Source: Aureococcus anophagefferens (Eukaryota > Sar > Pelagophyceae > Pelagomonadales > Pelagomonadaceae). Taken from it: a stretch of DNA of 23,134 nt. Shown piece by piece: positions 2,537 through 21,100 of this stretch. Every line of letters begins with the position of its first letter. The first letter of the stretch is position 1. The position numbers and the translations under genes were made by a program. The DNA lies in NCBI RefSeq assembly GCF_000186865.1, contig NW_008705577.1, positions 701,954-725,087 of the forward strand, read 5' to 3'. Under the pieces are notes generated by a model, which ran no database searches, was not told the DNA's origin, and saw nothing but the letters and a program-made list of their open reading frames with translations.

Positions 2537-3394
2537 TTAGGCTTCGGGCTCGTCGAAGAACGACGCCGCGGCGCCGCCGAAACCGCCGCGCGCGCGCGCC
2601 GCGTTCGCCGCGGCGATGGCCGCGTGCTCGCGCCTGTGCGGCCCGCCGCTCTCGAGGAGGCGCGCGTCCGCGACGTCGCCGCAGCGGAGCGCCGTCCAGC
2701 CCGCGGCGTCGAGGAGGCGCGCGAGCGCGTCGACGGCGCGCGCGTCGCCGGCGAGCTCGACGGGCTGCTTCGCGTCGTCGCGGAGCGCCGCGGCGGAGAC
2801 GGTCGAGAAGGCCTTGGCCCAGGCGACGGAGCCGTCGTCCGCGGCGTCGCGGAGCCAGGTCAGCTGCGTCTCGTGCGGCGGCGGCGGCCTGGACCGCGGA
2901 TGCAGCGCCTCGACGAAGCCCGCGCCCATGTCCACGACGACCTTGCCGCCGAGGCGCGCCCCGTGCGCGACGACGACGTCGAGGGCCGGCGCGCCCGGAG
3001 GCACGCACAGCAGCACGACGTCGGCGCCCTCGAGCGCGTCCGCGACGCCGCCGCCGGTCACGCCGAGGCCGCTGAGCGCCGCGATGTGGCGGCCGCGCGC
3101 GGCGTCGCGGGAGCCGACGGCGACGGACGCGCCGACCGTCGCCCAGCGCAGCGCGTGCGCCGAGGCCATGTCGCCCGTGCCGATGATCGCGACCTTGAGG
3201 TCGGCGACGGGCGACGGAGCCGCCGTCGGAGCGCATCTCGGCGCGATCGCCGGCAGGCCGGACGACGATAGACCGGCGGACGACGATGGCGGCAGACCGG
3301 CGGACGACGACAGACCGGCGGACGAAGACGGAGGTAAACCGGCGTCCTCCGGTTTCGGCGTGCGCCAGGGATCGCGCTTGCGCAAGCGACCCAT
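2537..3394 (-). CDS. NAD(P)-binding oxidoreductase, F420-dependent NADP reductase / STEAP-like Rossmann family
   Basis: 285 residues from the ATG at 3394 to TAA at 2539-2537. A Rossmann dinucleotide-binding start lies at about residues 67-80 (KVAIIGTGDMASAHA, GxGxMA type), followed by VVLLCVPP and KVVVDMGAGF. The motif AKAFSTVSAAAL resembles the VKAFNTVSA segment of the F420-NADP oxidoreductase and STEAP families. It probably catalyses hydride transfer with NADP(H); the substrate cannot be told. The first ~65 residues are a Ser/Gly/Leu/Pro-rich leader built from a 42-bp DNA repeat (about 3256-3343), possibly a targeting or disordered region. A longer frame exists upstream from a TTG, but the ATG at 3394 is preferred. 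It shares a 124-bp divergent promoter with the DcpS gene and converges on the RCC1 gene. Confidence 0.7.
   Translation of the reverse strand: MGRLRKRDPWRTPKPEDAGLPPSSSAGLSSSAGLPPSSSAGLSSSGLPAIAPRCAPTAAPSPVADLKVAIIGTGDMASAHALRWATVGASVAVGSRDAARGRHIAALSGLGVTGGGVADALEGADVVLLCVPPGAPALDVVVAHGARLGGKVVVDMGAGFVEALHPRSRPPPPHETQLTWLRDAADDGSVAWAKAFSTVSAAALRDDAKQPVELAGDARAVDALARLLDAAGWTALRCGDVADARLLESGGPHRREHAAIAAANAARARGGFGGAAASFFDEPEA
3256..3343. repeat. 42-bp in-frame tandem repeat (two copies, 18+24 subunits)
   Basis: The block alternates units of 18 and 24 bases built on CCGGCGGACGACGA, so the full period is about 42 bp, present twice. On the minus strand it encodes repeated AGLPPSSS and AGLSSS in the N-terminal leader of the oxidoreductase. 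Period and frame agree (42 = 14 codons), so copy-number change would keep the frame. Confidence 0.7.
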
Positions 3395-3518
3395 CGTTTG
3401 CGCGCGGGCTGCCGAGATGGGCTGCCAGTTGGGCCAGTTTGGGCAGGCCGGGGGGCAAGGCTCAACACTTCTCAAGGTTCACCACGTGGATCGATCACCC
3501 AAGGTGCCACAGAAATCG
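3395..3518. promoter_or_regulatory. Short divergent promoter with a G-box-like palindrome
   Basis: 124 bp separate the start codons of the oxidoreductase (-) and the DcpS gene (+), so both promoters must lie here or overlap coding sequence. It contains the palindrome CCACGTGG at 3482-3489 (core CACGTG), the known target of bHLH and bZIP factors, and TTGGGCCAGTTTGGGCAG, a near-duplicate of a 9-mer, at about 3428-3445. No TATA box is evident. Regulatory use of the G-box is inference. Confidence 0.35.
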
Positions 3519-4460
3519 ATGTCCTCGCAAATGAGCGCAGATGAGCGCCGCGTCCTCGACGACCTCGCGCCCTTCGCCGCGAAAGAGGTGCTCGCCTTCG
3601 GCGACGGCGGGCGCCACGCCGTCGTCCTCGGCGACGTGCGCGGCGACCCGGCCCTCGTGCAGCTCACGCAGCGCGCCGAGTACGACACCAAGGAGGCCCT
3701 CGTCGCCGCGCTGCCGTCCCTGAAGCTCGCGCTGACGAACTACAGCGGCGCCGAGTACTCCTACTACGACGCGGCCGCGCCGTCGGGCGCGGCCTTTGCC
3801 TGCGAGGCGATCTGGCCCGCGTCGGAGCGGCAAGTCCAACGCAAGCGCCCCGCGGAGCTCGTCGTCTACGAGGAGACCGGCGAGGCGTACGACCGGCTCG
3901 TCAAGCCCTTCGCCGCGGGGCAGGCGGCGAAGATCGGCTGGATCGACGCGGTCTGCAACCTCGAGCACGAGCGCGAGCGGAATCTTCAAGACCACGAAGA
4001 TTTCGTCGTCAACGTCGACACGAAGTGGCGGACGCACGGCGACTTCGGCGACCGGGCCGCCTGGAAGGGCGCGCCCTGGACGGCGGATCTGTACCTGCTG
4101 GCCATCGCCAAGGACGCGGCGTACGCGTCGATCCGCGACCTCCGGGGCGAGCGGGGCGCGGGCCTCGTCCGGGCCATGCGCGACGCGTTGCTCGCCGCCG
4201 CGCGAGACTACTACGGCGTGCCCCCGTCGAAGCTCCGCGTCTTCTTCCACTACCAGCCCCAGTTCTACCGCCTCCACGCGCACTGCACGGCGGCCCAGCA
4301 CGTGACGCCGGGCTGCGAGTGCGACCGCGCTCACCTCTTGACGACCGTTGCCGAGAACCTCGACCTCGCGCCCGACTACTACGCCCGGGCGACGCTGACC
4401 TACAAGCTCCGCGTCGGCGAGAAGCTCCACGGCATCCTGGTCGAAGGCGAGGGCTCCTGA
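3519..4460 (+). CDS. DCPS: Scavenger mRNA decapping enzyme DcpS (m7GpppX diphosphatase), HIT family
   Basis: 313 residues, single exon, ATG at 3519, TGA at 4458-4460, close to the usual ~330. DcpS hydrolyses the m7GpppN cap left after 3'-5' mRNA decay. Family signatures: NVDTKW at about residues 165-170, WTADLYLLAIAKD and SIRDLRG at about 187-210, and the HIT region VFFHYQPQFYRLHAHCTA at 241-258. In animal DcpS the last segment reads HYLPSYYHLHVHFTA. The central nucleophilic histidine (H253) and the following one (H255) are present, but the first position of the HxHxH triad is Arg (R251). The N-terminal swapped-dimer domain and the C-terminal HLL...NL segment are also recognisable. A second in-frame ATG lies four codons downstream of the first. 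Confidence 0.9.
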   Translation: MSSQMSADERRVLDDLAPFAAKEVLAFGDGGRHAVVLGDVRGDPALVQLTQRAEYDTKEALVAALPSLKLALTNYSGAEYSYYDAAAPSGAAFACEAIWPASERQVQRKRPAELVVYEETGEAYDRLVKPFAAGQAAKIGWIDAVCNLEHERERNLQDHEDFVVNVDTKWRTHGDFGDRAAWKGAPWTADLYLLAIAKDAAYASIRDLRGERGAGLVRAMRDALLAAARDYYGVPPSKLRVFFHYQPQFYRLHAHCTAAQHVTPGCECDRAHLLTTVAENLDLAPDYYARATLTYKLRVGEKLHGILVEGEGS

Positions 4461-4474: not shown

Positions 4475-4480
4475 ATCACA

Positions 4481-4587
4481 GCGCTCCTGCGCCCAGCCAG
4501 ACAGTCTGGCTGACTCGCTCTTGCGAGTTGAGCACTGGCAAAATGCCAGTGAGTGTGGCAAATTCACACCGGTGTTTCTGAACACCA
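4481..4587. repeat. Hairpin-array unit 1 (107 bp, six consecutive hairpins)
   Basis: Almost every base falls in a stem or a small loop. In order: GCGC-TCCT-GCGC (4481-4492); CAGCCAGA-CAG-TCTGGCTG (4494-4512); ACTCGC-TCTT-GCGAGT (4513-4528); CACTGGCA-AAA-TGCCAGTG (4533-4551); GTGTG-7 nt-CACAC (4553-4569); GGTGTT-TCTG-AACACC (4571-4586). The 3' arm of hairpin five can also pair with the 5' arm of hairpin six (ACACCGGTGT, 4566-4575), so an alternative fold exists. Base composition is clearly lower in G+C than the genes around it. There is no convincing open frame. Confidence 0.9.
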
Positions 4588-4693
4588 GCGCTCCTGCGCC
4601 CAGCCAGACAGTCTGGCTGACCCACTTGTCAAGTGGGCACTGGCAAATTGCCAGTGTGGGTGTGGACTTCCCACACCGGTGTTTCCGAACACC
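4588..4693. repeat. Hairpin-array unit 2 (second tandem copy, stems conserved by paired changes)
   Basis: Direct tandem copy of unit 1 with the same hairpin order: GCGC-TCCT-GCGC (4588-4599); CAGCCAGA-CAG-TCTGGCTG (4601-4619, identical); CCCACTT-GTC-AAGTGGG (4621-4637); CACTGGCAA-A-TTGCCAGTG (4638-4656); GGTGTGG-ACTTC-CCACACC (4659-4677); GGTGTT-TCCG-AACACC (4678-4693). Hairpin three differs from unit 1 in both arms, yet both versions pair perfectly. Hairpins four and five have longer stems than in unit 1. Differences elsewhere fall in loops. Confidence 0.9.
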
Positions 4694-4797
4694 ACCCTTG
4701 GAGGAAGACTTCGCGGACCGCGGTCGGCCCTTCGGATCACACCCGCAAGCGCGTCGCTTTCGACAGCCGACTCGACTTAGTCGCGCCGCGCGGCCGC
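4694..4797. other. Spacer between hairpin array and the next (minus-strand) gene
   Basis: About 100 bp with no gene. It holds the palindrome GACCGCGGTC (near 4717) and the imperfect hairpin CGACT-CGACTT-AGTCG (near 4768-4783). It is the 3' flank of the minus-strand gene that stops at 4798. Confidence 0.5.
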
Positions 4798-5472
4798 CTA
4801 GGCCGAGGCCGCGGCCTCGCCGCGGGCGACGTGGGTCTGGAAGATGAGGAGCTTGCGGAGGGGGTGGTTCAGGAGCCAGCCGTTGCCGTGGTCGCGGCCG
4901 TGCTCGTCCTCGAAGTCCCGCGCGTCGGCGATGATCTGGACGATGTCGCTCGACATGGTCACGGGCTCGCCCTTGCGGAAGACGACGTCGTCGGGCCAGC
5001 CGTAGGTGGGCGACGCGTAGTGGACGCCCTGCCCCGAGACGAGCTTCTCGGCCTGGCGCAGGACCTGGCGCCGGTTGTCCTCGCTGATGGGGTGCTCGTC
5101 CGTGAGGAACTCCTCGAAGGCCATCATGTCGAAGGCGCCGAGCATCGCGCGCTCGTCGTCCGTGAGGTCGGCGGCCGCCTTGCCGCGCCGCGCGCGCTTC
5201 TTCGGCCGCGGCGTCATGTCGTCCCAGTCGCGCTCCTCGTAGGTCAGCCGCTCCACGGGCGACGCGCCCTTGGACAGGCGCGCCGACGTGCGCCGCGGGC
5301 CCTGGGGCGCCTTCTTCTTGGGCGGCGTGCGCTGCGCCTTCTTGGGCGCCTTGAGCTTCGCGGCGCCGTCCTTGCCGAGGCCCAGCGACACGAGGAAGGC
5401 TTCGTTTCGCTTGATTCTCGCGTCGCGCTCGAGCTCGTACTGCGACTTCGGAGGCGCGTGGACGACGGGCAT
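4798..5472 (-). CDS. Basic, probably nuclear protein of unknown function
   Basis: 224 residues from the ATG at 5472 to TAG at 4800-4798. The N-terminus (YELERDARIKRNEAFLVSLG, about residues 12-31) resembles a short leader motif I associate with various plant and algal nuclear proteins. Two Lys/Arg clusters (PKKAQRTPPKKK about 43-54; PRPKKRARRGK about 91-101) look like nuclear localisation signals. The C-terminal ~110 residues are a compact mixed domain ending in GNGWLLNHPLRKLLIFQ, which I do not recognise. The frame stays open upstream to 5931, but that part is antisense to the next gene and compositionally unlike protein, so the ATG at 5472 is preferred. It is divergent from the 5720-6181 gene. 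Confidence 0.65.
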   Translation of the reverse strand: MPVVHAPPKSQYELERDARIKRNEAFLVSLGLGKDGAAKLKAPKKAQRTPPKKKAPQGPRRTSARLSKGASPVERLTYEERDWDDMTPRPKKRARRGKAAADLTDDERAMLGAFDMMAFEEFLTDEHPISEDNRRQVLRQAEKLVSGQGVHYASPTYGWPDDVVFRKGEPVTMSSDIVQIIADARDFEDEHGRDHGNGWLLNHPLRKLLIFQTHVARGEAAASA

Positions 5473-5719
5473 GATGGATGCTGGGGCTGCGATCTCCTGA
5501 TGATGCCACTGGATGGGGCTGATGGGGCTGCGATCTCCGGAAGGCGCCAAGTTCGAAACTCTCGGGGCTGCAAGTTGCAGGGAGCTTGCAGCGCAAGGTG
5601 GTGTGGCGATTCGCGAGCTTCTTGATGGTCTCGACGCCAACACAAAGGAGCTCTCGCAAACCCTCCTACCCAAACCTGTGGAAACGCCTCCCGCCCCCCC
5701 TACGCATTCAGGAACCGCG
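5473..5719. promoter_or_regulatory. Divergent intergenic region with a 16-bp direct repeat
   Basis: 247 bp between two divergent starts. TGGGGCTGCGATCTCC occurs at 5482-5497 and 5523-5538, with partial GGGGCTG copies between and after. GC is lower than in coding DNA, and the last ~60 bases before 5720 are C/T/A-rich, as expected for a 5' leader. A frame is open from an ATG at 5513 into the downstream gene, so that start is possible, but the repeats and composition argue for non-coding DNA. Confidence 0.4.
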
Positions 5720-6181
5720 ATGCCTCGTCGAAAGCTCGCGCCCAACCGAGGGGTTTCGACCACGCCCGCGGACGCCGATGAAGACGAAGGCGAGCGGCCG
5801 TCCCTGACGGACACAGAGTTGAATGCGAAGTCGCAGCGCCATTTGCTCGCGGGGGAAAAGCTCGCCGAGATCGAGCCGGTGACGAGCCCGGAGCGGCCAC
5901 TCATCGCGCCCCCCAGCCGAACCATGAGCACGCGGAGCGACGACGGCCTCGTCCTGCTCTCGACGGCGACGCGCTCGGTTCCCCTGGAGCACGCGGCCGC
6001 GGCCCTCGGCGACGTCCCCGGCGGCGACGGCGAAAGCGACGAGGACGCCTACGACGAGGAGCAATCCTTCCCCATGCTCCAGAGCTGCTTCTGCGGCGCC
6101 TTCGACTACGATCTCGTCGATCTCTCGACGATCTACGAGGAAGGGGAACCTCACGAGGACGGCGCGACCGTCGACGCCTGA
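5720..6181 (+). CDS. Small acidic protein of unknown function
   Basis: 153 residues from the ATG at 5720 (alternative ATG at 5513 would give 222), TGA at 6179-6181. Basic start (MPRRK), then Asp/Glu-rich disordered stretches (DADEDEGE; GDGESDEDAYDEEQ). Near the C-terminus a hydrophobic patch, SFPMLQSCFCGAFDYDLVDL, carries a CxC pair and may be a short binding motif. TSPERP and TPADAD offer proline-directed phosphorylation sites. No recognised domain. It points in the same direction as the XPF gene, 324 bp downstream. Confidence 0.5.
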   Translation: MPRRKLAPNRGVSTTPADADEDEGERPSLTDTELNAKSQRHLLAGEKLAEIEPVTSPERPLIAPPSRTMSTRSDDGLVLLSTATRSVPLEHAAAALGDVPGGDGESDEDAYDEEQSFPMLQSCFCGAFDYDLVDLSTIYEEGEPHEDGATVDA

Positions 6182-6505: not shown

Positions 6506-9436
6506 ATGGCGGCGCCGACGGCGCCCGCGCCGAGCGCCGCGGCGCCGTCGCCGCAGCTGCCCGCCTACCTGGCGCCGGTCGTCGACTTTGTGTGCGACGG
6601 CGACGCGCTCGCCGTCGTCGCGCGGGGCCTGTCGGCGACGGTGAACGTCGTCGCCGAGGTGCTGCGGCGCTGCGGCGGCGCCGACGGCCGCGGCGTCCTC
6701 GTGCTGAACATGAACGCGCGGGAACCCGCGCTCCGCGACGCGCTCCGGCGACTCGGCGGCGGCGGCGTCGCGGTCGCGGCGGCGTCGGAGACGTCGCGCG
6801 CGGCGCGCGCGGCGGTCTACGGCGGCGGCGGCGTCGTGCTCTGCGGGTGCCGCGTCGCCGTCGTGGACCTGCTCGACGGGACCATGGACGCCGCGCGGCT
6901 CGGGGGCGTGCTCATCGCGGACGCGCATCGCGCGACGGAGCGGTCGCTCGAGGCCTTCGTCGTCCGGGCCTTCCGCGAGCGCGAGCGGCCCGCGGAGTCT
7001 CCCCGCGCCTGGGTCCGCGGCATCACGGAGGAGCCCGAGCGGCTCGCGCGCGGCTTCGGGAACCTGTCCAAGGTCGTGAAAGAGCTGCAGGTCGACGGCC
7101 GCGTGGAACTCACATCTGAGATTAGTTGGACCAGACTCTTCGACCGTGCTTCGAGAACTCGACGAGAGCAATCGACTCGTCCCAAAATCAGCCGAATCGA
7201 CTTCGATGCGACCGAGCGAGAGGCATCTGACGTTCGGCCCCGCAGGTCGACGCCGTCGGCCTGTGGCCGCGCTTCGAGCACGGCCTCGCGAGCGCGCTCG
7301 AGCGCAACCCGCCGCGTGTCTTCGAGCTGCGGCGCGGGCTCGGCGGGCCCGCGGCGGCGTTCCAGCGGGCCGTCGTCGTCGCCGTCGACGCGTGCGTCCG
7401 CGAGCTCCGCGCCGCGCTCGCGGGCCGCGCGGACGGCGGCGCGGACGTCGCCGGGCGGCGGCAGTCGCTCGACGCCGTGCTCCGGGAGGCGGCGGCGTCG
7501 GCGTCCGCCTTCTTCGGGTGCCTCGACGACGCGCTGCGGAGCCTGCGGAGCCGCGACGAGGCGCTCGCGCCGGCGGCGCGCGCGCTCGCGGGCGACGCCG
7601 CGGCGCTCCGGCGGCTGCTCGAGCACGCGGAGCGCGGCGACGGCCTCGCGTGCCTCGAGCTCACCGAGGCGACGCTCCGCGCGGCGTCCGCGCGCGGCCG
7701 CGACGCCGCCGCCTGGGCGACGGGCGCCGCGGCGGACGCGCTTTTGAATTCTGCTCGGCGCCGCGCCTTCGAGGTCGCGCCCGCGCGGCGGGGGCAGCCC
7801 GCGCGGCTCCGCCGCGTCCTCGAGCCGAGCCCGCGCCTGGCGTTAGCCGTCGACGCCGTGCGCGACGGCGGCGGCGGCGGCACGTGCGTTTTGGTCGTCG
7901 CGGACGCGTCCGCGGCGGCGGCGGCGGCCGACGCGCTCGACCGGGGGCCCGAGCGCGCGGCCGAGGCGCGGTTCCTCAAGTACCTCGAGCGGTCCAACGC
8001 GCCCTTCCGCGACCGGCCGAAGACGACGCTCGAGCGGTCGCTCCTGATCGCCGAGGAGGCGAGCCTGCGCGCGGGCGGCGAGCCGCGGAAGCGGACGCGC
8101 GCGGCTTCGTGGCGGCGTTTGGTCGTGGCGACGCGCGCGGAGCTCCTCGACGGCTGCGACGCGCTGGGCGACTGGCGGCCGGACCGCGTCGTCCTCGCCG
8201 ACGCGCACCCGGACTGCGCGCGGGCGCTCGAGGCCTACGGCGCGCGGAGCCGCCGCGCCGTCGAGGTCTACGCGGTCGTCGTCGACGGAGCGGCCGACGA
8301 GGCGTCGCGGTCCGCCCAGGTCGACCGGGAGCGCGCCGCGTTCCTCAAGCTCGTCACCGAGAAGGAGCTCGTCGTCGTGCCGTCGGCGGCGGCGCGCGAG
8401 GCCGCGCGGCGGCGCGCGCGGCCGCCGCCGCTCCGGGGCGGCAAGCCGCCGTCGACGGCGGTGATCGCGGACGCGCGCGAGTTCCGCGCGCCGCTGCCGT
8501 CGGCGCTCCACGGCGCGGGGCTCGACCTCCGGCCGGCGACGATCACCGTGGGCGACTACGTGCTGTCGCCGGAGTTGGTGGTGGAGCGCAAGGCCGTGGG
8601 CGACCTCCACGGGTCGCTGCAGTCCGGGCGCCTCGTCGCGCAGGCCGAGGCCATGGGGCGCCACTACGCGACGCCGCTGCTCCTCGTCGAGACGACGAAG
8701 AGCCTGCGGGGCACGTCGGCGCACGTCCGCGACGACGACGACAAGGCCGTGAACCGCGCGGTCAGCGACGCGGGCGACGGCGACGACCTCTGCTCGACGC
8801 GGTGTGGAAATCAAATCTTCAACCCGACTTCAATGTGCGCGTAATCGAATGATTTGACACGAGCACGTCCGCCGCGCTTCGAGAACTCGCTGAGAGCAAT
8901 CGATTCGTCCAGAAATCAGCCGAATCGACTTCGATTTGACCGAGCTAGAGAATTCTGAAGTTTGGCCCCGACGTCCCAGCTCACTGGTTGATTTCCACAC
9001 AGGCTCGACGCGGGCCATCGAGGCGCGCGTCGCGGTGCTGGCCATGCACTTCCCGCGGCTGCGCTTCCTCTGGGCCGGCGACGACGCCGCGACGGCGGCG
9101 CTGTTTCTGGCGCTGAAGCGCGTCCGCGGCGACCCGGTCCTCGAGGACGCGCGGCGATGCGGCGCGCCGGACCTCGACGACGACGCGGCCGCGGGCGGGC
9201 GCAACCAGGCGGGGCTCGACGTGCTCATGAAGCTCCCGGGCGTCAACGCGTTCAACGTGCGCGCCGTCGTCGACGCCGTCGACAGCCTCGCGGACCTCGG
9301 CGACCTCGGCGTCGACGAGCTCCGGCCGCTCGTCGGGAAACACAACGCGCGGCTCCTCTTCGACTTCCTCCGGCGGCCCCTCGGCGACGCGGACGTTTCG
9401 CGGACGAAGCGCGCGGACCCGAGGCTCGACCGTTAG
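6506..9436 (+). CDS. ERCC4: DNA repair endonuclease XPF/ERCC4/Rad1
   Basis: Three exons (6506-7090, 7246-8791, 9003-9436) give 854 residues, near the family length of ~900. XPF, with ERCC1, makes the 5' incision in nucleotide excision repair and also acts on crosslinks and recombination intermediates. The N-terminal half is the degenerate SF2 helicase-like region (DGDALAVVARGLSATVNVVA; GGVLIADAHRATERSLEAFV; VGLWPRFEH rebuilt across intron 1, matching LYLWPRF of the human protein). The nuclease core is intact: GDYVLSPELVVERKAVGDL at about residues 631-649, with D632 and the E642-R643-K644 of the ERKxxxD motif. A C-terminal helix-hairpin-helix (LMKLPGVNAFNVRAVV) lies in exon 3. Both introns are introners. 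The stop overlaps that of the convergent channel gene. Confidence 0.93.
7091..7245 (+). mobile_element. Introner 2 (degenerate, related to family B), GT-AG, phase 0
   Basis: 155-bp low-GC intron in the helicase-like part of XPF. Flanks GTCGACGG (7091-7098) and GTCGACGC (7246-7253) are a near-perfect 8-bp duplication. The intron starts at the GT of the left copy and ends at CGCAG before the right copy, joining Gln to Val with no change to the domain. The internal core 7148-7196 matches the other introners. The ends no longer pair well (about 6 of the first 8 bases), so this looks like an older or shortened copy. Confidence 0.75.
8792..9002 (+). mobile_element. Introner 3 (family B), GC-AG, between nuclease and HhH domains of XPF
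   Basis: Element 8800-9002 (203 bp), flanked by a perfect 8-bp duplication GCTCGACG (8792-8799 and 9003-9010). Terminal repeats: CGGTGTGGAAATCAA at the left, TTGATTTCCACACAG at the right (14 of 15 complementary). Using the GC at 8792 as donor restores the frame (DLCSTRAIEARVAVLAMHF). The nearby GT at 8802 would shift the frame and retain the duplication. Intron length is 211 bp, identical to introner 5. Confidence 0.9.
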
Positions 9437-17215: not shown

Positions 17216-17874
17216 TCACCCTACGGGCCGAAAGGTCCCGTCGCTCGCCATCTCCGTGGCGATGGGGACGCAGTTCGGAATGTGGCCGCCGGCGTCCTTG
17301 AGGAGCCACTGGATCGAGTTGTGGTGCGCGACGACCCAGATGTCGCGCTCGGGCCGGCCCTGGAGCCAGGCCGCGAAGCCCTGGAGCGTCGCATCCTCGC
17401 CCTCGGCGACCAAGGAGAAGTCGATGTCCTCGAAGCGCGGCAGGCAGCAGAGGTCGCGGTCGCGGCGCAGCGCGGCGACCGGCCGGCGCGCGTTCTCCGG
17501 TAGCTTGCTACCGATCTCCTTGATGCCCGGGTGCACACGATCGGCGCCGCGGCGAATCGCAGGTGCAGGCACGTCGCGAGCGCGCGCGTCAGCGGCGAGA
17601 CGACGACGAGGTCCGGCTCGACGCGAATGTCCGCGCCCGCGGCCGTCGCTTCGCCGACGCCTTTCCGCGTGAGCCCGCAGTCGAGGAGCCGCGGGTCCGT
17701 GCGCTTGATGCCCCGCGACCGCGCGGCGTTGCCCTCGGACTGGCCGTGCCGGATGAACGTGACGCGCTGCGGCGCGCCGATCCCCGGGCACGAGGCCGCG
17801 TGCGGGTCGACGAGCGTGCCCGCGCGCGCGACGGTTTCCTGCGTGCGCCTCTTGTTTTCCACGAGCGACGCCAT
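17216..17874 (-). pseudogene. Histidine phosphatase (phosphoglycerate mutase-like) gene with a frameshift
   Basis: ATG at 17874, stop TGA at 17218-17216, but the domain is split between two frames. The first part carries the catalytic VTFIRHGQSEGNAA (R42-H43-G44, the phosphorylated histidine) and VVVSPLTRALATC. The second frame continues directly with HPGIKEIGSKLPENARRP and the second catalytic histidine region WVVAHHNSIQWLL. The switch falls in a CACAC run at 17534-17538, where two surplus bases (or one missing) would account for it. The family contains phosphoglycerate mutases, fructose-2,6-bisphosphatases and assorted phosphatases; substrate unknown. Because everything else is intact, a sequencing or assembly error is about as likely as a real lesion, so the pseudogene label is provisional. 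Confidence 0.7.
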
Positions 17875-17913
17875 GCGTGTGTGTCTTGCACGAGGCTGCG
17901 AGTCTGTCTTGCA

Positions 17914-18013
17914 CGAGGCTGCGACTGCGACGCTTCGGGCTGCCCGACGAGGCTGCGACTGCGACGCTTCGGGCTGCCCGACGAGGCTGCGACTGCGATG
18001 CTCGGGCTGCCGA
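17914..18013. repeat. Minisatellite, three 34-bp units, in the divergent promoter
   Basis: Units 17914-17947 and 17948-17981 are identical (each starts CGAGGCTGCGACTGCGACGC); the third, 17982-18013, is shortened by two bases and diverged. A related 23-bp step (CTTGCACGAGGCTGCGAGTC start, 17885-17907) precedes them. It lies between two divergent starts (17874 and 18156). Confidence 0.85.
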
Positions 18014-18155
18014 CGCGCAAGCCCGGATTGTTCGAGCTCACGCGCGTATTGAGGTCTGCATGCGATCTATGTTGAAGACGGACAGTTGCCACAGTGGCCT
18101 CTTGCGCATGGGAGCTTTGCGAGTCGAGTGACGGCGCTTTGCGAGTCGAGTGACG
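18014..18155 (+). promoter_or_regulatory. Promoter side with a 20-bp duplication abutting the ATG
   Basis: GCTTTGCGAGTCGAGTGACG occurs at 18114-18133 and 18136-18155, separated by two bases; the second copy touches the ATG at 18156. The upstream ~80 bp (about 18030-18110) are lower in G+C, as expected for promoter or leader DNA. Confidence 0.5.
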
Positions 18156-21100
18156 ATGGCCGCCCGCGCCGTCCTCCCCGCGCTGCACGTGGAGCCGCTG
18201 CGGTCGTCGAGCGTCAAGACGCTCGGCGTCATAGCAACCCTGCGCGCCGAGGCCTGCGGCGGCGAGGTCCTGGAGCGCTGCTTCGCCGCCGACGCGCGCT
18301 GCGACGAGGCGCTCGGCCGCTTCGTCGCGGAGCTGCGCGACCGGAGCGAGTTCCTGGCGCGGCTCGTCGCCGCGGCGCCCCCCGACGAGCGGCGGGGCGT
18401 CGCGCGGCTCGTCGCGTACCGCGTGCTGTCGCCGCACGCGTGCGACGACGTCGCCGTCTGCGGGCTGCTCGCGGCGGCGCGCGGCGCGCCGCGGGGCACG
18501 CTGAAGCAGCTCGTCGAGGTCTACGCGGAGCGGAGCGACGTCGTCGCCTACTTCCGCGACGTCGCGTGGCGCGGCGACGGCGCGCGGCGCGCGCTCGCGG
18601 CCTACGAGCGCGCGCGGCCGCCGCCGGGCGCGACGGGCGCCGGCCGGCGGCCCGCGGGCGCAATATCGCTCCGCGGGCCGCCGGAGGACGCGCCCCTCGC
18701 GGGCGTGCGCGCGGCGCTCGCCCTCGTGCGCGCGCTCGCCGACGAGCGCGCCGTCGCCGAAATCCCGCGGCCCGTCGCCGCTTTGGTCGCCGGTTCGGAA
18801 AAGCCCGCGGCGCTCTTCGGCGCCATGGTCCTCGCGCCGGCGGCGCGCCGCGCCGTGCGCTGCGCCGCGGGCGTCGCGACGGCCGCCGAGGCCGCGGGCG
18901 CGGACGTCGCGGACGACGCGCCGCGGAAAGACGGCGACGACGGCGGCCTGAGCGACGCGCTCCGCTGCGGGTGGAGCGGCGCCGCGGCCGCGCGCTACGT
19001 CGACCGCGCCGCGGCCCACGACCGGCCGCGCCTGCGGCGCAAGGTCGACGAGCTCCGCGACGCCGTCGCCGCGCTCGCGGAGGCCGTCGCCGCCGCCGCG
19101 GACCCGCGGTCGCGGCGCGCCGCGCGCGCGCTCAGCGGCGACTGCCTCCGCGCGCTCGCGGCGCGCCGCGCGGCGCCGCGGCCGCCGCGGGCCCTGGGCT
19201 GCGCGTCCTGCCTCAGCCGCCACGAGGCGCGGACCCTCCCGCGAGGGCCCCATGGGCTCGGAGCCGACCGAGTTCGTCGTCGTCCCGCACGGGCCAGACG
19301 CCGCCGGCGGCGCCCCCGACGACGGCGCCACCGCCGCCGTCCCGGCCGCGTGGCGCGAGGCGCCGGCGCGCCCCGCGTCCGCGCGCGACGCCGCGTCGCG
19401 CGTCGCCGAGGCGTCGCGGCCCCCGGCGCGCGCCCGCGCGCCGCCGCCGCCGCCGCGCCGGGCCGCGCCGGGCGGGCCGCGCTACGCGAACCCGACGCTG
19501 AGCCGCCTCGCGCGGTCGCCGGAGAAGGTGCGCTTCGACGATCTGCGGCCCGACGAGCAGCGGCTGTGCTTCGACGGGGCGGGAAAAGGGTCCAACTTCA
19601 AAGGCTCATATCTCGGCCGTGTTCCACTCGTTTTGGCTGATTCTTGGACGAGCGATCATCCCTCGGAGCGCGCTCGAAGCGTAGATGCTTTCCCGGGAAC
19701 GCGCGCGCGCGAAACACTCACGTTGAAGCGACGTTGAATCACCCTGTTCCTGCCCAGGTACTTCGACGCGATGCTCCGCCGGCCCTGGGCCGACGTCGAC
19801 GGCGACCGGCGCGGCGACGCCGTCCAGGAGAATCTGCGGCCCGGCGCGCTCCACATGCCGACGGTGCGCGCCGTCGCGCGGCTGAGCGTGCCCGAGACGC
19901 GGCGGCGACACCACGGCGCGTCCGCGGCCCGCGCGCGCGCGGCGCCGCTCGCGGCGACGGCGCTCCTGAAGAGCGCGCCGTCGCCGCCGCCGCGGCCGAC
20001 GCCGGACGAGTCGAGCTTCCGCGAGTCCGTGCGGCGCACCTTCGACTCGTCGGAGTCGGCCGCGTCGACGCCCGACCCGGCGCCGCGGCGCTCGCCCGAG
20101 TCGGCGACGCCGACGGCGCGCGCGTTCCCGGAGTCGAACGACGACACGCCCGTCGGCGCGTCGTCGCCGTCGTCCTCCGGCAGCTCGGCGCCGGCGCCGC
20201 CGGCGCCGCCGGCGCGGCGGACGCCGGAGCGGCCGCGGCCGCCGCGCGTCGCCACGTCCGCGCCGACGCGCGGCGCGTTCCTCGAGGCGGTGCTCGGGCC
20301 CGCGCCGGGGTCGCCCGTCGCCGACCCGCTGTCGCCTCTCTCCGGCGACAGCGTCGCCGCGCCGGCGACGGCGCGGGACACCGCGGCCGCGCCGCCGTCG
20401 CCGCCGCTGTCGCCGCTCTCGGGCGACAGCGTCGCGGCGCCGGCGACGGCGTTCCGGCCCGAGGCGCTGCCGCCGCCGCCGCCGGAGCCGGCGCGCACCT
20501 GGCAGCCGGAGACGCCCTACGAGTGCGACGCCTACGACGACGACGGCGCGCCGCCGCCGCCGCCGCTGCCCGAGGTCCACGAGCCCTCGGTGCTCCTCGA
20601 GGGCGACCTCTTCAAGAAGGGCCTCGGCCGCTCGGCGCTGGGCCGGAGGACCTGGAAGCGGCGCTGGGTCGAGCTCTACGACGAGTGGACCGACCACATG
20701 GGCACGCACGTCGGCCCCGCCTTGGCCTACTACCGCGACGCGACGCTCCTCGGCGCCGTGCTGCTCTGTGTGGAATTCAAATCTTCAACCCGACTTCAAT
20801 GTGAGCGTATGCGACCGTTTTGACACAAGCTCTTCGGCTGTGCTTCGAGAACTCGACGAGAGCAATCGATTCGTCCAAAAATCAGCCGAATCGACTTCGA
20901 TTTGACCGAGCTAGAGAATTCTCAAGTTTGGTCAGGACCACCCTAACCAGTGGTTGAATTCCACACAGGTGCTGCTGGACGGCTGCGCCGTCGCGGACCG
21001 CGACGGCAAGGGCGACCCGGTCCCGCGCGAGTTCTACGCGACGTCGCGCATCGAGCAGCGGGCCTGGATCGACGCGATCCGCGGGGCCGTCGACGCGCAC

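Follow-up and report, generated by a model that had tools for sequence, protein, structure and literature searches.

Directly downstream of a gene for a DcpS-like scavenger decapping enzyme, the alga Aureococcus anophagefferens carries a segment (positions 4671-4734, plus strand) that is, by sequence comparison, close to certainly a copy of the alga's own histone 3′-end signal. Positions are those of the window, the whole stretch of 23 134 nucleotides of contig NW_008705577.1 that was analysed. The segment is of the H4/H2B type and consists of a flank, a stem-loop, the tail ACCC and a downstream element. It aligns with the 3′ ends of host histone H4 genes at 91% identity over 67 columns, with an E-value of 3.6e-19 among the loci retrieved from the genome and of 6.3e-18 against the whole genome (49.05 Mb in 86 contigs). 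The gene ahead of it is DcpS and there is no histone coding sequence; what is present is hence a histone-type 3′ end only, not a histone gene. Its stem-loop is the last of twelve small hairpins that make up a tandem array of two units.

On balance we favour a reading in which the histone 3′-end machinery would cut the DcpS pre-mRNA, whose end would be a stem-loop, likely with SLBP bound to it, and not poly(A).

The DcpS gene and the signal behind it

The DcpS-like coding sequence (313 aa) occupies 3519-4460 on the plus strand and closes with a TGA stop codon at 4458-4460; its Pfam DcpS_C match (E 1.6e-14) was scored on the longer open frame 2616-4460. The product is 96% identical to protein P0001 and both have the C-terminus EGEGS, so that the frame is open to the usual C-terminus. 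Its best species-named relative is an m7G(5′)pppN diphosphatase of A. anophagefferens, with 268 of 271 aligned residues identical outside a gap of 39 residues, and at E ≤ 0.001 it is the single DcpS match in the genome. The annotated A. anophagefferens DcpS protein (P0002) terminates in LKGLFS versus EGS here, so gene model or sequence differs just 5′ of the array. On the far side, a convergent open frame of 377 aa (4798-5931, minus strand; predicted boundaries) has no Pfam family match. The array sits between the end of the DcpS coding sequence at 4460 and the end of this frame at 4798, and starts 20 nt 3′ of the DcpS stop codon.

Two other kinds of repeat were seen in the window. Dispersed repeats of 100-200 nt lie in both orientations at 1839-2005, 7136-7237, 8802-9003, 19592-19758 and 20768-20969 and are 82-87% alike (one 62%). 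On inspection by eye they resemble introners, reported from Aureococcus in a passage of one paper (PMC9860276). A cluster of short tandem repeats at 17874-18155, with units of 23, 34 and 22 bp, adjoins a minus-strand frame at its 5′ end; judged by eye, the product of this frame resembles a phosphoglycerate-mutase-type protein.

The stem-loop of the signal, GGTGTT-TCCG-AACACC at 4678-4693, is hairpin 6 of the second array unit and was identified by genome pattern searches. It has a six-pair stem and a four-base loop, one base of which is unlike the main form of the host; the TCCG loop is also present in two H2A genes. ACCC stands directly behind the stem (4694-4697), as it does behind 30 histone stem-loops found with a pattern that itself includes ACCC. 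Six nucleotides after ACCC, one base below the range of 7-9 nt in histone genes, comes a purine-rich sequence like the histone downstream element, GGAGGAAGA, with its GAAGA core at 4704-4708. The genome holds at least 14 other copies of the 4671-4734 module, and among the matches listed seven are behind H4 genes and seven behind H2B genes.

The sequence-only reading had taken the array for something without a named counterpart. That view did not survive, hairpin 6 being the histone mRNA 3′ stem-loop with ACCC and downstream element.

This complete signal is present at unit 2 only, and on the DcpS strand only. Its stem-loop lies 217 nt behind the DcpS stop codon, outside the histone range of 42-108 nt. 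The corresponding hairpin of unit 1 (4571-4586, loop TCTG; assigned by sequence comparison) lies 110 nt behind the stop. Its stem is intact, and stem-loop and flank share 23 of 25 bases with the H4 end, after which AGCG follows and not ACCC; it is probably not a processing site.

Histone 3′ ends of the host and their processing

The stem-loop with ACCC, at up to three mismatches, occurs at 35 places in the 49-Mb genome (reversed-pattern control, 1), and 30 of these follow the stop codon of an H2A, H2B, H3 or H4 gene at a distance of 42-108 nt. Hairpin 6 searched together with its 5′ flank, again at up to three mismatches, was found at 29 places (reversed control, 1), two of them in the window; the flanks of most of the other 27 translate as ends of H4, H2B, H3 and H2A. 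A degenerate stem pattern with zero mismatches hit 33 genomic places, among them one outside the 35 (C3:234327) that does not pair. Some histone stems covary, GGTTTT/AAAACC at two places and GGTGTC/GGACACC at one, with all six pairs kept. GAAGA is found 7-9 nt behind ACCC in all 27 distinct histone contexts, versus a frequency of 0.2% per position in the retrieved loci. As a passage in one source describes it, the histone downstream element is the sequence recognised by U7 snRNA (PMC7614891). We take the GAAGA of the host histone genes to occupy the place of this element, and the set of stem-loops to be the alga's histone mRNA 3′ end.

Compared with the replication-dependent histone mRNA 3′ end in general (SLBP stem-loop plus downstream element; RF00032), the array shares the six-pair stem, the four-base loop, ACCC and a purine-rich element, and it matches the version of the host histone genes nearly letter for letter. 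It differs in its place behind DcpS, in its distance from the stop codon, and in the five preceding hairpins and the tandem duplicate; any U7 pairing is putative. The H4 genes of the host (for example C4:97060, C1:439488 and C36:315883) differ in having 3′ UTRs of 65-74 nt up to the stem-loop and no hairpin string.

For the machinery, the SLBP RNA-binding domain (PF15247) has one match in the genome, at C1:804287 (E 7.1e-20), above the Pfam cut-off and covering profile positions 1-57 of 70. The U7 snRNA model (Rfam RF00066) gave no match at E ≤ 1 among 65 scored of 1063 candidates; this negative is weak, given that coverage and the sub-cut-off matches of the model in 6 of 14 control genomes. 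The Rfam Histone3 model (RF00032) did not report the window. Tested on seven true stem-loops of host histone genes (loci L013, L014, L031 and L076), it missed six and scored the seventh at 18 bits versus a gathering score of 34, and is thus almost insensitive to this lineage. In viral contigs the exact stem-loop had no matches, and a search of these contigs for DcpS relatives gave four pattern matches, none confirmed.

Five of the 35 stem-loop places are without a histone end in front, namely the window, C50:129181, C36:304895, C71:32886 and a place on contig C12, and among them an intact stem, ACCC and the downstream element occur together only in the window. C50:129181 and C36:304895 are H3-type 3′ ends with no histone gene ahead and without a downstream element. 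They look like relics, which suggests that stray copies can be inert. At C50:129181 (L062, about 1433-1640) an H3-type end running from TAA to ACCC is followed, by eye, by an inverted piece of H3 coding sequence, and the break is directly behind ACCC, the position where a processed mRNA would end. The H3-type end at C36:304895 (L075, 1996-2070) has one broken stem pair, no GAAGA and no H3 gene ahead. C71:32886 is a poor match, with five of six pairs, ACCG for ACCC and no GAAGA. The C12 place (C12:9637-9656; L066, 1501-1520), near the start of its contig, has an intact stem, ACAC for ACCC and GAAGA at 7 nt, and follows, 416 nt after the stop codon, an open frame that looks FHA-like by eye. It is a possible second non-histone stem-loop end, and a weaker candidate. 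Widespread presence of the stem-loop at non-histone genes was considered and rejected, such places being only five of 35 even with the window, two relics and one poor match included.

Architecture and folding of the array

Tandem Repeats Finder placed the repeat at 4479-4694, with period 107, 2.0 copies and 84% matches. Repeat finding and inverted repeats divide it into unit 1 (4481-4587, 107 nt) and unit 2 (4588-4693, 106 nt), both read on the plus strand and each with six hairpins. Each of the twelve hairpins is a perfect inverted repeat with a stem of 4-9 bp, and almost no DNA separates them; array G+C is 59% versus 74% for the window; in both respects the sequence-only reading had described the array correctly.

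In unit 1, hairpin 1 (4481-4492; sequence and fold) is GCGC-TCCT-GCGC with 4 bp, and the next four were called as inverted repeats: hairpin 2 at 4494-4512 (8-9 bp, with the same sequence in unit 2), hairpin 3 at 4513-4528 (6 bp, both arms unlike unit 2), hairpin 4 at 4533-4551 (8 bp) and hairpin 5 at 4553-4569 (5 bp plus one G-U). Their counterparts in unit 2 are hairpin 1 at 4588-4599 (from the fold) and, as inverted repeats, hairpins 2 at 4601-4619, 3 at 4621-4637 (7-8 bp), 4 at 4638-4656 (8-9 bp) and 5 at 4659-4677 (7 bp). The right arm of this last hairpin, by alignment, doubles as the 5′ flank of the histone stem-loop.

Hairpins 1-5 had no second copy in the 49-Mb genome by DNA search, in which very common words are skipped. 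A dispersed repeat, as which the array had been considered, was rejected on this ground. An Rfam scan of the array gave two sub-threshold matches only, neither above chance: Entero_5_CRE on the minus strand, at 19.1 bits versus 46, and P5, which falls outside the array.

Folding was judged against shuffled sequence. As RNA, 4479-4695 folds at -126.3 kcal/mol (z -10.70), and as DNA it reaches z -12.44, with none of 200 shuffles as good in either case. A scan of the window in 768 segments of 107 nt, with 40 shuffles per segment, placed all of the four best z-scores (-5.6 to -6.2) in the array; the best elsewhere was -5.0. A further 976 non-redundant 107-nt segments, taken from the other retrieved loci and hence largely from the surroundings of histone genes, were tested with 30 shuffles per segment, and their best z was -4.5.

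The two units differ in a way that preserves pairing. Hairpins 1 and 2 are identical between them and hairpins 3 and 5 are altered in clusters. When hairpin 3 is aligned by hand on its outer C-G pairs, T-A is seen changed to C-G and G-C to A-T; hairpins 4 and 5 have extra pairs in unit 2. Random mutants were folded for comparison. When unit 1 received 11 substitutions and 2 deletions, none of 4000 mutants reached the fold energy of either unit, and of 4000 mutants of unit 2 with 11 substitutions 15 reached the energy of unit 1. When the 11 substitutions were allowed only in the variable stretch of unit 1, the energy of unit 2 was reached by none of 4000 mutants and that of unit 1 by 11 of 4000. 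The pairing-preserving pattern between the units exceeds chance. The earlier proposals that hairpin 3 had changed in both arms while still pairing in each unit, that hairpins 4 and 5 had moved toward better pairing, and that folding is what is kept thus hold up, the last by both the fold z-scores and the mutant comparison.

Similar hairpin strings in histone 3′ UTRs were also looked for and were rejected by z-scores. The 27 distinct histone 3′ UTRs range from 0.0 to -3.6 with the stem-loop and from 0.3 to -4.1 without it, versus -9.4 and -9.1 for the array. Histone 3′ UTRs are not comparably rich in hairpins, so such a string does not generally accompany the stem-loop.

Alternative explanations and proposed function

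The main rival is that a histone 3′ end was transposed or converted into the place behind DcpS and is inert there, the paired changes having arisen by quasi-palindrome correction. In this known mutation process one arm of a hairpin templates the repair of the other, so both arms can change together. We regard such an inert copy as unlikely, with some points in its favour. Two other stray histone 3′ ends without a histone gene ahead are present in the genome, the differences in hairpins 3 and 5 are clustered while hairpins 1 and 2 are identical, and since there are just two units, selection is indistinguishable from templated mutation. Against it, quasi-palindrome correction leaves the histone signal unexplained, and both relics have lost the downstream element (one a stem pair as well), whereas the window copy has kept stem, ACCC and GAAGA despite about 9% divergence from H4. 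The stem of unit 1 is intact as well.

A two-directional structural terminator or roadblock between convergent genes, in the earlier reading a two-way terminator or insulator, seems improbable. The array does lie between convergent frames and its fold energy is nearly equal on the minus strand, but only one strand carries ACCC and the downstream element. Because hairpin 6 brings these two, the array is strand-specific for DcpS and not a symmetrical terminator. Moreover, no 107-nt window in the other retrieved loci folds as strongly for its composition.

We give still less credence to the idea that the array is a non-coding RNA in its own right, with a 3′ end formed by the histone machinery. 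The very stable fold and the complete 3′-end signal would suit such an RNA; however, with the array starting 20 bp behind the DcpS stop, the DcpS coding sequence would have to contain the promoter of that RNA, and there is no Rfam match above chance. Least credible of all is a mobile hairpin element or recombinase substrate (a transposase substrate or mobile palindromic repeat had also been suggested), for which the palindromic make-up and nothing else speaks, whereas hairpins 1-5 have no other genomic copy and the recurring part, hairpin 6, is explained by histone genes.

We therefore return to the reading of the array as the 3′ UTR of the DcpS mRNA, a role that the sequence-only reading had listed among its candidates, that of a structured 3′ UTR, and that the present results support. 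The array would be transcribed as this 3′ UTR and cleavage would fall just after ACCC; the mRNA is predicted to carry at its end a stem-loop, which SLBP would likely bind, in place of a poly(A) tail. It may then follow the histone mRNAs in S-phase-linked production and decay. Before the 107-bp tandem duplication the working stem-loop would have stood about 110 nt from the stop codon, close to the histone range; the duplication would have put it at 217 nt. Hairpins 1-5 likely form a compact 3′ UTR, and their unbroken chain would fold up the 217 nt, keeping the stem-loop near the terminating ribosome as in histone genes. While the identity of the module is near certain, its function is held with less confidence because stray, apparently inert ends occur, and in view of the U7 and Histone3 results. 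The full proposal is more tentative, and we would put it at somewhat short of even: that the DcpS mRNA captured a histone H4 3′-end signal and with it SLBP-type processing, giving histone-like cell-cycle control, and that the string of hairpins, preserved through compensatory change, acts as a spacer whose folding keeps the stem-loop near the stop.

In the literature searched, none of the matches listed describes a histone-type end on DcpS, which is weak evidence of absence, and no paper on histone stem-loops in Aureococcus or Pelagomonas was found there. According to a passage in a paper of 2009, direct regulation of other genes had never been attributed to SLBP (PMC2781718).

The histone 3′-end code of this alga is documented here, with the main loop UUCG, the tail ACCC and GAAGA 7-9 nt further on. 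If the proposal is true, the histone 3′-end system would be open to capture by non-histone genes. S-phase mRNA decay would then be linked to its own clean-up, through a cap-scavenging enzyme that is produced at the same time as the histones.
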